NCBI GenBank assembly: GCA_011390885.1
Contig: JAABRO010000028.1
Coordinates: 1-36,546 of the forward strand
Reading direction: 5' to 3'
DNA length: 36,546 bases
DNA from: Gemmatimonas sp.
GTDB lineage: Bacteria; Gemmatimonadota; Gemmatimonadetes; Gemmatimonadales; Gemmatimonadaceae
This document shows, one piece after another, positions 677 to 11,202 of the stretch. A program made the position numbers and the translations under genes. Each line of letters begins with the position of its first letter. Positions within the stretch are counted from its first letter, which is position 1. The notes under the pieces are model-generated. The model did not search any database, was not told the DNA's origin, and was given only the letters and a program-made list of their open reading frames with translations.

Positions 677-1939
<1,263 letters not shown>

Positions 1940-1983
1940 CCGGCACGATCGCCGATGACAGCTGACCTCAACCACTGAAACTG

Positions 1984-2298
1984 ATGACCACCAGCACCAT
2001 CGCCGGCATCGAACTCGAGGTGGACGCCGAGGGCTTCCTGCAGAAGCCGGAGCAGTGGACCGACGCGGTCGGCGAGGCCATCGCCGCCGAGCTCGGCATC
2101 GAGATGACCGATCGGCACTGGCAGGTGGCGCGCTTCATGCGCCAGCGCTTCCTCGACAACGGCACCGCGCCCACGATCCGCACCCTCGGCAAGGAGTCGG
2201 GCGTGGATGTGAAGGAGCTGTACAAGCTGTTTCCCAAGGGACCGGCCAAGCTGGCCGCGAAGATCGGCGGCATTCCGAAGCCGCGCGGCTGCATCTGA
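1984..2298 (+). CDS. tusE: TusE/DsrC-family sulfur carrier protein
   Basis: This 104-aa protein has the full DsrC/TusE pattern: a family start (IAGIELEVDAEGFL), a central helix-turn region (HWQVARFMRQRFLDNG, TAPTIRTLGKESG) and the flexible C-terminal arm ending PKPRGCI. The penultimate Cys103 is the invariant persulfide-carrying cysteine (CysA). The second arm cysteine of true DsrC, eleven residues earlier, is replaced by Ala92, so this is a TusE- or RspA-like sulfur carrier rather than the DsrC partner of dissimilatory sulfite reductase. No tusBCD or dsrAB genes are nearby. It lies 44 bases after sqr and 40 bases before the DsrE2-like gene on the same strand. The likely role is relaying sulfane sulfur from SQR-derived persulfide to cytoplasmic acceptors. 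That role is inferred from context. Confidence 0.85.
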   Translation: MTTSTIAGIELEVDAEGFLQKPEQWTDAVGEAIAAELGIEMTDRHWQVARFMRQRFLDNGTAPTIRTLGKESGVDVKELYKLFPKGPAKLAAKIGGIPKPRGCI

Positions 2299-2338
2299 CC
2301 GAGCGCACCGTCACCCGTCACCGCACACGGAGCCGAGC

Positions 2339-2806
2339 ATGGCCGACGCCATCGAGAAGGTCTCGATCATCATCTCCAAGGGGTCGTTCGAGGGCGCCTA
2401 CCCGGGGCTCATCATGGCCAACGGCGCGCGCATGGAAGGGATCGAGGTGAACGTGTTCTTCACGTTCTTCGGCCTCGACGTGATCAATCCGGCGCGCAAT
2501 GCGCACCTGCAGGTGGCCACGGTGGGCAATCCCGGGCTGCACATCCCCACGGTCGTGGGCGCGCTGCCCGGCGTGAGTTCGCTGGTCACGCACCAGATGG
2601 AAAAGAAGATGGAGGAGCTCGACATGCCGCCGATCCCCGAGTTCGTGCAGCTGCTCGCGGATTCGGGCGCGCAGCTGTATGCGTGCAAGGCGTCGGTCGA
2701 GATGTTCGACCTCACCCGCGAGGATTTCGTCGAGGATCTCGCGGGCATTGCGACCGTGGGCGAGTTCTACGCGATGGCCGCCGGCGGGCAGATCATCTTC
2801 ACCTGA
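2339..2806 (+). CDS. DsrE2-like (DsrE/F/H superfamily) sulfurtransferase-type protein
   Basis: This 155-aa protein matches DsrE2-type members of the DsrE/DsrF/DsrH superfamily. It has an opening strand with SIIISKGSFEGAYPGLIMANGA, a strongly conserved hydrophobic VNVFFTFFGLDV stretch (38-48), and one cysteine, Cys116, in LYACKASVEMF, the position that carries persulfide in this family. It ends in a Gly-rich hydrophobic segment, AAGGQIIFT. No clear transmembrane helix is seen, so it is probably cytoplasmic. As the third gene after sqr and tusE, it likely works with TusE in moving sulfane sulfur; the partner assignment is inference. The start ATG 2339 is the first in frame after the tusE stop. 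Its last 8 bases overlap the convergent amidase gene. Confidence 0.8.
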   Translation: MADAIEKVSIIISKGSFEGAYPGLIMANGARMEGIEVNVFFTFFGLDVINPARNAHLQVATVGNPGLHIPTVVGALPGVSSLVTHQMEKKMEELDMPPIPEFVQLLADSGAQLYACKASVEMFDLTREDFVEDLAGIATVGEFYAMAAGGQIIFT

Positions 2807-4442
2807 GGGCGGGCGCGGTCGGCGGCGGACGGCGATGTCGCGTGGCCTGCTCGTACGCGTGGCCGATGCCGAGCAGCCGGGCTTCGCTGAACGGTCGTCC
2901 GAGCAGTTCGAGGCCGATCGGCAGTGCGTCGCTCGTGAAGCCGGCGGGAACCGTGAGCGCCGGAAATCCGAGCGTTGGGCTGAGCCCGCGATTGTCGCCG
3001 AGCCCGTACTCATCGTCGGGACGCGGGTTGGTGAGCACGTCGTCCGCGATGCGCGTGGGTGCCGCGTCGTACGTGGCGTACACGAGGGCGTCGAGCTGGT
3101 GGTCGGCCATGAGCGCGAGCACGGCGGTGCGCTGGGCCTCCCGATTCTGCAGCACGGTGAGGTAGTCGGGGTCATGTGTGGTCTTGCCCACGTACTGGAT
3201 CATCGATCGGGCGCGCCACGGATTCACCACGCCGGCGAGCATGATCTCCTTGAACGTGCGCACGGGGGCATTCGGGTGCTGCGCGAGGTATGCATCGGTC
3301 GCTTCCTCGGTCTCGAAGTCGTTGCCGACGCGACGTCCGGGCACCGGCGGCACGACCAGCGAGTCCACGACCTCGGCACCGAGCGCGCGCAGCTCGCCGA
3401 GGGCGCGCTCGAACACGGCGAGCCCCTTCGCGAACTCCACATGGCGCGCACGCACGCGCGCCTCGAGACGCGCGACCGAATCGGCTGACAGCGTCGAATC
3501 GCGCCGTGCCGCGCGAAGGTCCGCGACGCTGTCACGCCGAGTGCGCAGCACACCCACACGCACCCCACGGAGTGCGTTCGTGCGCTGTGCACTCGCTGGC
3601 AGCGCGTCGCGGTAGCTCGCCGGACGCTGGCCGACCGATCGCGCGGTGATCGGGTCGCGCGGGTCGTAGCCCGCGATCACGTCGAGCACGCGCGCCGCGT
3701 CCTCGACGGTGCGCGTCATGGGGCCGAGCACGTCCTGGGTGGGATTGGCCGGCATCATGCCGAAGACGCTCACGAGGCCGAGCGTGGGACGCAGTCCGAC
3801 GAGGGCGTTCACGGCCGCGGGGCCGCGGATGGATCCGCCGGTGTCCTCGCCGATGCCCACGAGGCCGAGGTTCGCGGCCACAGCCGTGCCGGTGCCGGCT
3901 GACGAACCGCTCGGGTTGCGCGTCGGATCGTACGCGTTGCGCACGATGCCCGCGGCGGAGCCGACGTAGCGTCCCGCGAACTCGCCCATGGTGGTCTTGG
4001 CGAGGATGATGGCGCCTGCCGCCTCGAGCCGCTCCACGATGGTCGCGTCACGAAGCGGGACGAAGTCGCGGAACAGCGCGGAGCCATACGTGGTGGGCAT
4101 GTCGCGCGTCTCGACCTGATCCTTCAGCAGCACCGGCACGCAGTGCAGCGGTCCGCGCGCCTGCGTGCGCGGCAGCGCGTCGAGCGAATCGGCTTCCAGG
4201 AGCACGCGCGCGTTGCGGTGCTGGATGCTGTTGAACGTCGGCCCCTGTGCGTCGAACGCATCGATGCGATCGAGGTACTGCTGCACGAGTGCGCGACAGC
4301 TGAGGCGCCCCGACGCGAGTGCCCGCTGCACATCCGTGATCGTGGCCTCCATCACGTCGACTGGCTGGGCGGAAAGCGTGCCGGCGCCGACCCAGGTCAT
4401 GAGGAGTGCGGTGAGCACGGGAAAGGCGAAGCGCGCGCGCAT
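2799..4442 (-). CDS. Exported amidase (amidase signature family)
   Basis: The 547-aa protein starts with a Sec signal peptide (hydrophobic 8-20, ending TLSAQ near 26), so it acts outside the cytoplasm. It has the amidase-signature Ser-Ser-Lys triad: Lys107 in PVLLKDQVET, the Gly/Ser-rich NPSGSSAGTG around 176-185 with the cis-Ser, and nucleophile Ser204 in EDTGGSIRGPA. It would hydrolyse an amide bond, but the substrate is unknown; family members include GatA-like proteins and peptide or aryl amidases. A charged helical insertion lies between about 290 and 360. The open frame extends far upstream of ATG 4442, but that part lacks any family similarity and overlaps the divergent gene at 4626, so the signal-peptide ATG is preferred. 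It faces the sulfur cluster convergently and overlaps it by 8 bases. Confidence 0.88.
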   Translation of the reverse strand: MRARFAFPVLTALLMTWVGAGTLSAQPVDVMEATITDVQRALASGRLSCRALVQQYLDRIDAFDAQGPTFNSIQHRNARVLLEADSLDALPRTQARGPLHCVPVLLKDQVETRDMPTTYGSALFRDFVPLRDATIVERLEAAGAIILAKTTMGEFAGRYVGSAAGIVRNAYDPTRNPSGSSAGTGTAVAANLGLVGIGEDTGGSIRGPAAVNALVGLRPTLGLVSVFGMMPANPTQDVLGPMTRTVEDAARVLDVIAGYDPRDPITARSVGQRPASYRDALPASAQRTNALRGVRVGVLRTRRDSVADLRAARRDSTLSADSVARLEARVRARHVEFAKGLAVFERALGELRALGAEVVDSLVVPPVPGRRVGNDFETEEATDAYLAQHPNAPVRTFKEIMLAGVVNPWRARSMIQYVGKTTHDPDYLTVLQNREAQRTAVLALMADHQLDALVYATYDAAPTRIADDVLTNPRPDDEYGLGDNRGLSPTLGFPALTVPAGFTSDALPIGLELLGRPFSEARLLGIGHAYEQATRHRRPPPTAPALR

Positions 4443-5100: not shown

Positions 5101-5529
5101 ATGCGCGTGCACCGGCACACCCTCACGCTCGCCACCGGCCAGCCCATCGAGATCCTCGACCTCACCGAGCGCGTGCGCGTCTGGGTGCGCGAATGCGGCG
5201 TGCGCGACGGGCTGCTCACGGTCACGTCGCCGCACACCACGGCGCGCATCACGGTGAACGAACGCGAGGCACGGTTGCAGGAGGACATGGTGCGCTTCCT
5301 GGAGCGCCTCGCGCCGCGCGACGAGCCGTACGGACACAACGCCGATCCCGTGGACGATCGCCTCAACGCGCACGCGCACCTGCTCGGGCTGTTCATGAAC
5401 GCGACGGAGTCGATCCCCGTGGCCGACGGCGACCTCGTGCTCGGGCAGTGGCAGTCGCTCTTCTTCGTGGAGCTCGACGGGCCGCGTGCGCACCGCGAGG
5501 TGCTGCTGCAGCTCCTCGGCGCCGAGTGA
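5101..5529 (+). CDS. yjbQ: YjbQ-family protein (UPF0047; secondary thiamine-phosphate synthase-like)
   Basis: The 142-aa protein is a full-length YjbQ/UPF0047 member. It has the conserved [13 protein letters not shown] block (His45 region), the acidic [13 protein letters not shown]-like helix, the conserved [20 protein letters not shown] core and the [15 protein letters not shown] signature near the C-terminus. Family members form small beta-barrel trimers, and some show weak thiamine-phosphate synthase activity; the physiological role is not settled. It is followed after four bases by the RuBisCO-like gene, so the two are almost certainly co-transcribed and may be translationally coupled. 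ATG 5101 is the first start giving the family N-terminus. Confidence 0.88.
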
Positions 5530-5533
5530 CCGC

Positions 5534-6832
5534 ATGACGTCCGACGACATCGCGGGATTCTTCGCACGCCGAGCGGAGCTCGACCTCGACGCGTACCTCG
5601 AACTCGACTTCACCTTCGAGTGCGCGGGTGATCCGCGCTCGGCCGCCGCGCACCTGTGCAGCGAGCAGTCCACGGCCCAGTGGAAGCGTGTGGATGTGGC
5701 CGAGGACTACCGGCCCCGCTTCGGCGCGAAGGTGCTGGAGCTCGAGGCCACGCCGTTGCCGCACGGCTTCTCGTATCCGGTGGCGAACGCACCCACGGGG
5801 GGCGTACACCGCTGCCGCGCCGTGATCGCGCACCCGCACGGCAACTTCGGCGCGCGGCTCCCCAACCTGATGTCGGCCGTGATGGGCGAGGGCGTGTTCT
5901 TCGCGCCGGGCATTCCGCTCGTGCGCCTCGAGGACATCCGCTTCCCCGCCTCGTACCTCGCGTCGTTCGACGGGCCGCAGTTCGGCGTGACTGGTGTGCG
6001 CCGACTGCTGCAGGCGTTCGACCGACCGATCTTCTTCGGCGTGATCAAGCCCAACATCGGGCTGCCGCCGGCGCCGTTCGCCGAGCTTGGTCACGAGGGG
6101 TGGCTGGGCGGGCTCGACGTGGCGAAGGACGACGAGATGCTCGCCGACGCACCGTGGTCGCCACTGGCCGAGCGCTCCGCGCTGCTCGGCGACGCGCGCC
6201 GCCGCGCCGAACAGGCCACCGGCGTGCCCAAGGGCTACCTCGCCAACATCACCGACGAGGTGGACCGGCTCGTCGCGCTGCACGACGTGGCGGTGGCGAA
6301 CGGCGCGAATCTCGTCATGCTGAACGCGCTGCCCGTGGGACTGAGCGGCGCGCGCATGCTGCGCCGCCACGCGCGCGTGCCGCTGGTGGCGCACTTCCCC
6401 TTCATCGCGGCGTTCAGCCGGCTCGGCGCGTACGGCGTGCACTCGCGCGTGTTCACGCGGCTGCAGCGGCTGGCGGGCTTCGACGTGATCATCATGCCGG
6501 GCTTCGGGTCGCGCATGATGACGCCCGAGCACGAGGTGCTCGAGAACGTGCGCGCGTGTCTCGAGCCCATGGGCGACATCCGGCCGAGCCTGCCGGTGCC
6601 GGGCGGGAGCGACTGGGCGGGCACGCTGGAGACGGTCTACCGGACGCTCGGCACGACGGACTTCGGCTTCGTGCCGGGGCGTGGCGTGTTCGGGCATCCC
6701 ATGGGCCCCGCTGCCGGCGCCGCGAGCATCCGACAGGCCTGGGACGCGATCCGCGATGGGGTGCCGCTCACCGAACGCGCCGCGACGCAGACGGAGCTGC
6801 GCGCGGCGCTGGCGCACTTCAGGGCTCCTTGA
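5534..6832 (+). CDS. Form IV RuBisCO-like protein
   Basis: This 432-aa protein has the RuBisCO large-subunit fold: an N-terminal alpha/beta domain, then a TIM barrel. Seen directly: GVIKPNIGL (Lys172 equals the catalytic Lys175 of plant enzyme), [11 protein letters not shown] (Lys198, Asp200 and Glu201 keep the carbamate and Mg site), and His287 in AHFPF, near the expected His294. The second Lys of the IKPK motif is Asn174, the His327 region reads DVIIMPG without His, and loop 6 lacks its usual GK (GFGSRMM). The phosphate-site GG recurs as PGGSD and [12 protein letters not shown]2 fixation is therefore unlikely, but an enolase- or decarboxylase-type reaction remains possible. Known form IV proteins act in methionine salvage or sugar-acid catabolism, or affect sulfur oxidation. 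It sits four bases after yjbQ. The exact clade is not resolvable by eye. Confidence 0.87.
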
Positions 6833-9825: not shown

Positions 9826-11202
9826 ATGGACCGTCGCCAGTTCGCCGCCACGCTCGCCAGCGCCACGGCCGGCCTCGCGCTCGCGCGCCCGCTCGCCGCG
9901 CAGGCGAGCATGCCGTCGTTCGCTGCCATGCCGCGCACCTCGCCACTGCTTGCGCTGCGGCGCGCGCTCGCGCCCACGATCGACGCGGGCCGGCTCAACG
10001 CGCGCCTCGCCGAACTCGCCACCTTCGGCGCGCGCACCGATGGCGGCGTGGATCGTGTCGCCTATTCGCCGGCCGACCTGGCGGCGCGCGCGTGGATCGA
10101 GCCGCTGCTGCGCGACGCGGGGCTCACGGTGCGACGCGATGTGGCCGGCAACCTGATCGCGCGGCGCGAGGGAAGCGATCCGACGCGGCGCCCGATCGTG
10201 ATCGGGTCGCACATCGACACCGTGCCCGCAGGTGGGCGATACGACGGCACCGTGGGCGTGCTCGCCGCCATCGAGGTGGCCGACGCGCTGCGCGCCTCGC
10301 GCACGGCGCTGCGCCATCCGCTCGAGGTGGCGATCTGGATGAACGAGGAAGGCGGGCTCGTCGGCAGCCGCATCGTGGCCGGCGAACTGCAGGATGGGGA
10401 CCTCGATGCCGTGGCCGTGGCCGGTGTGACGCATCGCGAGGGGATCACGCGCATCGGCGGCGATCCCTCGCGCATTCACGAGGCGCGCTGGGAGCCTGGA
10501 CGCATCGCGGCCTAAGTGGAGCTGCACATCGAACAGGGCGGTTCGCTCGACCGGGACGGCCTCGAGATCGGCGTCGTGGAAGGGATCGTGGGGATCTACG
10601 CCTGGGACGTCACCATCACGGGGCAGCAGAACCATTCCGGCGCCACGGCCATGGTCGACCGCAAGGACGCGCTGCTGGCCGCCTCGCGCTACGTCGCGGC
10701 CGTGGACCGCATCGTGCGCGCCGAAGGGCAGGCGGTCGGCACGGTGGGCCGGCTCGCCGTCACGCCGGGCGCGCGCAACGTGATCCCGGGGCGTGTCGAT
10801 GCCTCGCTCGAACTGCGCTCGCTCGACGAGTCGCGCATCCAGCGGCTCTACGAGACGATTCGCCGCGAAACCGCGCAGATTGCCGCGGCGAACGGCACCG
10901 CCTTCGAGTTCAGGCTGGCACAGTCGCGCGGACCGTCCATGTGCGTGCCGGCGATTCGCGACGTCGTGCGCACGCAGGCGCGTGCGCTCGGTCGGAGCAC
11001 GAACGACGTGCCCAGCGGCGCGGGACACGATGCGCAGAGCATGGCCCACCTCGGGCCGATGGGCATGATCTTCGTGCCGAGCGTTGGGGGCATCAGCCAC
11101 TCGCCGTGGGAGCTCACGCACCCGCACCAGGTGGCGCACGGCGCGGAGGTGCTGCTGCAGGCCGTGCTGGCGCTCGACGCGAATCCGCCGGCCGGCGCGT
11201 GA
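9826..11202 (+). pseudogene. Exported M20-family N-carbamoyl-amino-acid/allantoate-type hydrolase, split by an in-frame TAA
   Basis: The frame encodes a complete Zn-dependent M20 hydrolase of the N-carbamoyl-L-amino-acid/allantoate amidohydrolase group. It starts with a Tat-like signal (DRRQFAATLASA). Metal and catalytic residues are present: His129 and Asp131 (GSHIDTVPAGG), Asp140 (RYDGTVG), Glu174/175 (NEEGG), then His234 in VELHIEQGG, and GAGHDAQSMAH with GGISHSPWE near the end. A TAA at 10513-10515 interrupts the frame directly before VELHIEQG, where relatives commonly have Tyr or another residue, so one base change from TAC or TAT would create it. Everything downstream is intact and in frame, without other stops or frameshifts. 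The next codon, GTG 10516, could start a separate 228-aa half. Possible explanations are a recent nonsense mutation, a sequencing error, stop readthrough or a split protein. Confidence 0.85.

Follow-up and report, generated by a model that had tools for sequence, protein, structure and literature searches.

A conserved gene pair of YjbQ and a form IV-Photo RuBisCO-like protein, with a possible role at the DXP/isoprenoid node of bacteriochlorophyll-making bacteria

The RuBisCO-like protein (RLP) of form IV-Photo and one subfamily of the orphan protein YjbQ are encoded by neighbouring genes, in an adjacency that is far beyond chance. We read the two as a co-inherited two-protein metabolic module at the 1-deoxyxylulose-5-phosphate (DXP)/isoprenoid node, found mainly in bacteriochlorophyll makers, and give this reading a probability of roughly 45%. 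The pair was studied from a stretch of 36,546 nucleotides of Gemmatimonas sp. (contig JAABRO010000028.1 of assembly GCA_011390885.1), hereafter the window. Taken alone, the window RLP is one more member of a known clade; earlier work reported a Photo RLP in Gemmatimonas phototrophica (PMC7844134) and found phototrophic Gemmatimonadota of fresh water to carry type IV genes (PMC8547001). The new part, so far as the searched open-access literature shows, is the conserved pairing with YjbQ and its dxs, idi and puf context; no earlier description of the pairing or of the dxs/idi links was found in that literature, and an earlier mention is possible.

In the window, the RLP gene starts four bases after yjbQ on the same strand, as the earlier note on this DNA had stated. 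The features of the locus are the following:

5101–5529, + strand: yjbQ (UPF0047), 142 aa, above the cut-offs of PF01894 and TIGR00149; Photo-RLP-associated YjbQ clade
5530–5533, + strand: intergenic gap of four bases (ccgc), the junction reading TGA-ccgc-ATG
5534–6832, + strand: form IV-Photo RLP, 432 aa, with ATG at 5534 and a stop codon ending at 6832
6047–6049, + strand: RLP Lys172, equivalent to Rubisco K175 in the family alignment; kept in all Photo RLPs
6053–6055, + strand: RLP Asn174, replacing Rubisco K177 in the family alignment; invariant in the Photo clade
6125–6136, + strand: RLP Lys198-Asp199-Asp200-Glu201, equivalent to the Rubisco K201 carbamate and the D203 and E204 metal ligands; K, D and E invariant in 43/43 Photo RLPs
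6392–6397, + strand: RLP His287-Phe288, with Rubisco H294 kept and R295 lost in the family alignment (one phosphate-site residue gone)

The window YjbQ matches PF01894 with 124 bits (E 4e-36; cut-off 27) and TIGR00149 with 106.9 bits (cut-off 67.75), while the RLP matches PF00016 with an E-value of 7e-49. An RLP start at GTG 5486, taken from the list of open reading frames, was dropped for the ATG at 5534, as the alignments with 2QYG and 1YKW begin at Met1. A promoter/terminator scan of the locus gave no match. Elsewhere in the window, positions 677–2803 (+ strand) hold a mini-cluster of a type III sulfide:quinone reductase (SQR), a DsrC/TusE protein and a DsrE2-like protein, the SQR scoring 590 bits against NF049943 (cut-off 525), a model labelled as a selenoprotein subtype. 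At 9826–11199, the frame of an M20 peptidase is split into two open reading frames by a single in-frame stop (10513–10515), which is either a pseudogene or an assembly error.

The window RLP aligns over nearly its full length with the solved structures 2QYG (E 1.8e-224) and 1YKW (E 1e-182; 1TEL and 1YKW are both of the C. tepidum RLP). In a maximum-likelihood tree that set 43 Photo sequences beside true RuBisCOs and further RLPs (of Rhodopseudomonas, Rhodopila and Gemmatimonadota), the 43 Photo RLPs, window protein included, form one clade (support 99/99); the form IV assignment made earlier thus holds, and the protein can be placed by its sequence in the IV-Photo clade. It shares this clade, the active-site changes and a phototrophic host with the RLPs of C. 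tepidum (1YKW/1TEL), R. palustris (RLP2; 2QYG, RPA0262), A. vinosum (Alvin_2545) and G. phototrophica (WP_026848175), and itself shows no difference from them. The possibility that the protein would fall in a known clade with a known substrate applies in its first half, as IV-Photo has structures and mutants, yet its substrate is unassigned (PMC5893883). Among NCBIfam models, the best score is that of OiaX, an RLP acting as 3-oxo-isoapionate-4-phosphate decarboxylase (NF042437), which at 226 bits is far under its cut-off of 700; the MtnW/YkrW enolase models TIGR03332 and NF007095 give 136 and 169 bits (cut-offs 513.6 and 409), and the type III RuBisCO model also scores far under its cut-off. 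DeepYkr proteins (RLP1; 3QFW-like, L185) form a separate branch (100/100). They keep K201 and D203, but DeepYkr-like RLPs have His at E204 and Pro at R295, where Photo RLPs have Glu and Phe. In Gemmatimonadota of another family (f2; L101–L112), we observed RLPs of a different clade, near R. palustris RLP1 (3QFW), with KDDH replacing KDDE.

The family alignment shows that the earlier note had read the active site correctly: K172, N174 (where the second Lys of IKPK is lost), K198, D200 and E201 correspond to Rubisco K175, K177, K201, D203 and E204. In 43/43 Photo RLPs, K175, K201, D203, E204 and H294 are kept, the carbamate/Mg residues among them, and K177 is replaced by Asn; R295F, S379G, G381S and G403R are equally invariant. 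With K177, R295, S379, G381 and G403 replaced, the complete RuBP site of true RuBisCO (forms I–III) is missing, a loss that supports the non-carboxylating activity suggested for the protein. The segments matching the Rubisco His327 and loop-6 Lys regions bear no resemblance to them when the sequence is read by eye. In Rubisco, R295 and S379 hold one phosphate of RuBP. A site in which K201/D203/E204, K175 and H294 are kept, R295 and S379 are lost and G403 is Arg would suit the enolisation of a ketose monophosphate.

Pairing was examined in the best 80 of 186 Photo-RLP loci among about 85,000 species genomes, a sample that favours closer relatives. Among these best 80, YjbQ lies directly upstream on the same strand in 63/63 loci outside Chlorobiaceae, which rules out local coincidence, and in 0/17 Chlorobiaceae loci, where the pair is split. 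The gap, stop codon included, is at most 12 nt in 48 of the 62 loci measured. Among purple bacteria, both alpha- and gammaproteobacterial, the paired loci come from Rhodopseudomonas, Rhodoblastus, Rhodopila, Rhodoplanes, Blastochloris, Rhodomicrobium, Chromatiaceae and Ectothiorhodospira; the others belong to Gemmatimonadota and, in one case, to the Chloroherpetonaceae. Within 249 Gemmatimonadota genomes, 12 carry a Photo RLP and the same 12 a Photo YjbQ, neither gene occurring alone (Fisher 1e-20, without phylogenetic correction); searched with the window YjbQ, exactly 12 of these genomes have a match of at least 55% identity, the next match being at 47%. No Photo YjbQ without an RLP was seen in 385 Alphaproteobacteria genomes, a result of little weight with the query genome as the sole positive. 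The pair is not confined to the window genome, and linking both orphans to one pathway, as the earlier note had ventured, is justified because the pairing is real and widely conserved; it constitutes a strong genomic link. In L121 (G150), from a distant Gemmatimonadota family, the pair groups with Ectothiorhodospira in both the YjbQ and the RLP trees, which suggests that the whole pair was transferred.

A tree of 102 YjbQ sequences, including other paralogues of the same genomes and E. coli YjbQ, unites all paired YjbQs in one clade (98/96), together with single unlinked copies from five Chlorobiaceae genomes, to the exclusion of every other paralogue sampled; two rows labelled solo in this tree belong to the pair, L013 being adjacent to its RLP and L161 having a gene inserted. 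In this latter locus (2236–4188), from a single Gemmatimonadota genome (G129), the gene lying between the Photo yjbQ and the RLP is on the same strand. In a sixth Chlorobiaceae genome (G279), a YjbQ match is absent altogether. The window YjbQ shares its fold, and family models above cut-off, with E. coli YjbQ and T. maritima TM0723 (YjbQ/UPF0047), but is only 26% identical to the former and falls in the distinct subclade tied to Photo RLPs. Its AlphaFold model (pLDDT 96) has 1VPH as best fold match (Z 22), and the fold search returned just YjbQ structures, followed by unrelated rows under Z 6. Photo YjbQs have invariant His, Asp, Glu and Arg residues, such as are expected of an enzyme.

The window genome (G000; 95% complete) has pufL, pufM and bchL, so that its host is, by gene content, a predicted anoxygenic phototroph; the RLP loci closest to that of the window, among the best 80 of 186, are from Gemmatimonadota. 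Reaction-centre genes occur in 9 of the 12 pair-bearing Gemmatimonadota against 25/249 overall (Fisher 4e-8, not phylogeny-corrected), and G123 has bchL, with pufLM not found. However, the module is not strictly photosynthetic: bchL and pufLM are missing from three pair-bearing genomes, namely G057 (100% complete), G073 and G258, the last a gammaproteobacterium. An absolute photosynthetic role is thereby ruled out. A phototrophy link of this non-strict kind is more in keeping with a role in isoprenoid precursors than with one in the reaction centre. Separately, four Gemmatimonadota genomes (G182, G150, G191 and G100; L084–L087) combine type 2 reaction-centre genes with a true form I RuBisCO, making them candidate photoautotrophs; G182 and G150 additionally carry the yjbQ–RLP pair.

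Gene neighbourhoods offer a further clue to the pathway. In Chromatiaceae, idi follows the RLP in 18 loci and the order pufL-pufM-pufC-yjbQ-RLP-idi is found in 17, often with lipA next; this idi encodes a type 1 isopentenyl-diphosphate isomerase (TIGR02150, 137 bits, cut-off 106). A. vinosum has Alvin_2545 as its RLP and Alvin_2547–2555 as its puf genes (PMC3368242), which would leave Alvin_2546 for YjbQ. In Chlorobiaceae, dxs (TIGR00204, DXP synthase) lies about 85–97 nt downstream of the unlinked Photo YjbQ on the same strand in 5/5 genomes, while the RLP stands in the order bchF, aldolase/SDR (PRK08324), LsrF (PRK08227; 510 bits, cut-off 297, an LsrF-type thiolase), RLP, SDR. This split arrangement is probably derived, because Chloroherpetonaceae, sister in the RLP tree, keep the pair. 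Alphaproteobacteria and Gemmatimonadota loci, the window included, have no isoprenoid neighbour, and their representatives showed no third conserved gene beside the pair; in several Gemmatimonas relatives (L010, L047 and L092), the RLP has a ThiF/MoeB-rhodanese gene downstream, oriented on the opposite strand. The dxs, idi/puf and bchF/LsrF neighbourhoods each go back, probably, to one ancestral event, hence they amount to two or three independent isoprenoid or pigment links only. Altogether, the links with phototrophy, dxs, idi and puf, which the earlier note missed, point to a DXP/isoprenoid role over sugar-acid catabolism.

Of the parts of this reading, the assignment of the module to DXP or isoprenoid precursors as pathway node is the one that we hold to be reasonably probable. 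The RLP would most likely be an isomerase that depends on a carbamate and Mg2+ and enolises a C5 deoxypentulose monophosphate. Its model is the DeepYkr RLP of R. rubrum and R. palustris, which converts 5-methylthioribulose-1-phosphate into 1-methylthioxylulose-5-phosphate en route to DXP (PMC4958253, PMC5893883), and so likewise delivers a C5 ketose phosphate towards DXP, as proposed here for the Photo RLP. Swapping the methylthio group for hydrogen would give 5-deoxyribulose-1-phosphate, whose 1,3-isomer is DXP, so that the proposed chemistry would be the R. rubrum RLP reaction minus the methylthio group: 5'-deoxyadenosine would yield 5-deoxyribulose-1-phosphate through a phosphorylase and MtnA, and the RLP would turn it into DXP by 1,3-ketose isomerisation. 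That 5-deoxyribulose-1-phosphate is the exact substrate is a tentative choice on our part. Unlike the DeepYkr methylthioadenosine (MTA)-isoprenoid shunt, the Photo RLP is dispensable for MTA use, and the rlp2 deletion of R. palustris lacks a strong phenotype (PMC5893883). RLP2 slowly forms 1-methylthioxylulose-5-phosphate in vitro but not in vivo (PMC5893883), a side activity to be expected if the real substrate were a close analogue.

As for YjbQ, its substrate would be the metabolite on which the RLP acts, or else an epimeric or side product. One guess is an epimerase, given that the products of the DeepYkr RLP include the xylulose as well as the ribulose epimer (PMC5893883). Overexpressed YjbQ rescues thiamin-phosphate synthase and pdxB mutants (PMC11551756, PMC7954711), both of them affected in DXP-derived vitamin pathways, and the secondary thiamin-phosphate synthase activity of the family is likewise known by overexpression, from work cited in the former paper. 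The Chlorobiaceae neighbours may fit one class of C5 substrates, since by chemical reasoning the LsrF substrate, 3-hydroxy-5-phosphonooxypentane-2,4-dione, would be 4-dehydro-DXP and also oxidised 5-deoxyribulose-1-phosphate, and a RhaD-type aldolase could cut the same skeleton. An MtnA-family gene occurs in 28/28 genomes checked, and equally in genomes without the pair, so that it is uninformative and was dropped as a discriminating partner. The C. tepidum RLP mutant is reportedly reduced in photopigment too, which would favour the isoprenoid reading.

At face value, tight gene spacing and strict co-inheritance might also reflect a complex of the two proteins or mutual regulation between them, with YjbQ as small accessory subunit or chaperone of the RLP and a substrate unrelated to DXP. 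Chlorobiaceae, however, split the genes and put YjbQ with dxs, and the invariant residues of Photo YjbQ look like those of an enzyme, so that we regard this explanation as improbable. To the same low degree we credit a role of the pair in sulfur oxidation or oxidative-stress defence, a proposal that goes back to the C. tepidum RLP mutant, whose phenotype PMC5893883 and PMC3368242 cite. The SQR, DsrC/TusE and DsrE2-like genes of the window, 2.3–4.4 kb upstream of the pair, and an SQR-like flavoprotein upstream of it in Ectothiorhodospira (L035) would agree with such a role, but a sulfur gene beside the pair is not recurrent in other loci, and deleting rlp2 in R. palustris brings out none of the sulfur phenotypes (PMC5893883).

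A slightly fainter prospect is that the substrate is a phosphorylated dicarbonyl (P-DPD/P-HPD type), which the RLP, assisted by YjbQ, would isomerise in the manner of LsrG so that an LsrF-type thiolase gives acetyl-CoA and DHAP, the isoprenoid neighbours being coincidental. In Chlorobiaceae, LsrF (PRK08227, 510 bits), a class II aldolase/SDR and an SDR do flank the RLP, but LsrF was seen beside the pair in no other lineage and the dxs, idi and puf neighbours are left unexplained. Least likely of all, because of the R. palustris deletion work, and in our view very improbable, is methionine salvage with the RLP as 5-methylthioribulose-1-phosphate isomerase or DK-MTP-1-P enolase: weak in vitro isomerase activity reported for RLP2 (PMC5893883) and the presence of the MtnA family speak for it, but for R. 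palustris a part in MTA metabolism has been excluded by tests in vivo and by kinetics, which largely refutes this explanation there (PMC5893883); the MtnW models, with cut-offs of 514 and 409, give 136 and 169 bits; and the Photo clade is separate from RLP1.

To return to the DXP/isoprenoid reading, its boldest form, which we consider rather doubtful, is that the pair provides a second RuBisCO-superfamily route, which would lead from 5'-deoxyadenosine through 5-deoxyribulose-1-phosphate to DXP and so bypass or supplement DXP synthase for the isoprenoids of bacteriochlorophyll and carotenoids, with YjbQ as partner enzyme in that step. Strict co-inheritance and the dxs, idi, puf and bchF neighbours narrow YjbQ and the IV-Photo RLP to one node and a short list of substrates, which opens the functions of both orphan families to direct test. 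The widespread orphan YjbQ is known through side activities only, and the path from 5'-deoxyadenosine to DXP, if true, would be its first physiological role. It would also be a second RLP-based link from by-products of SAM to isoprenoid supply, and would bear on how the RuBisCO superfamily and anoxygenic photosynthesis evolved.
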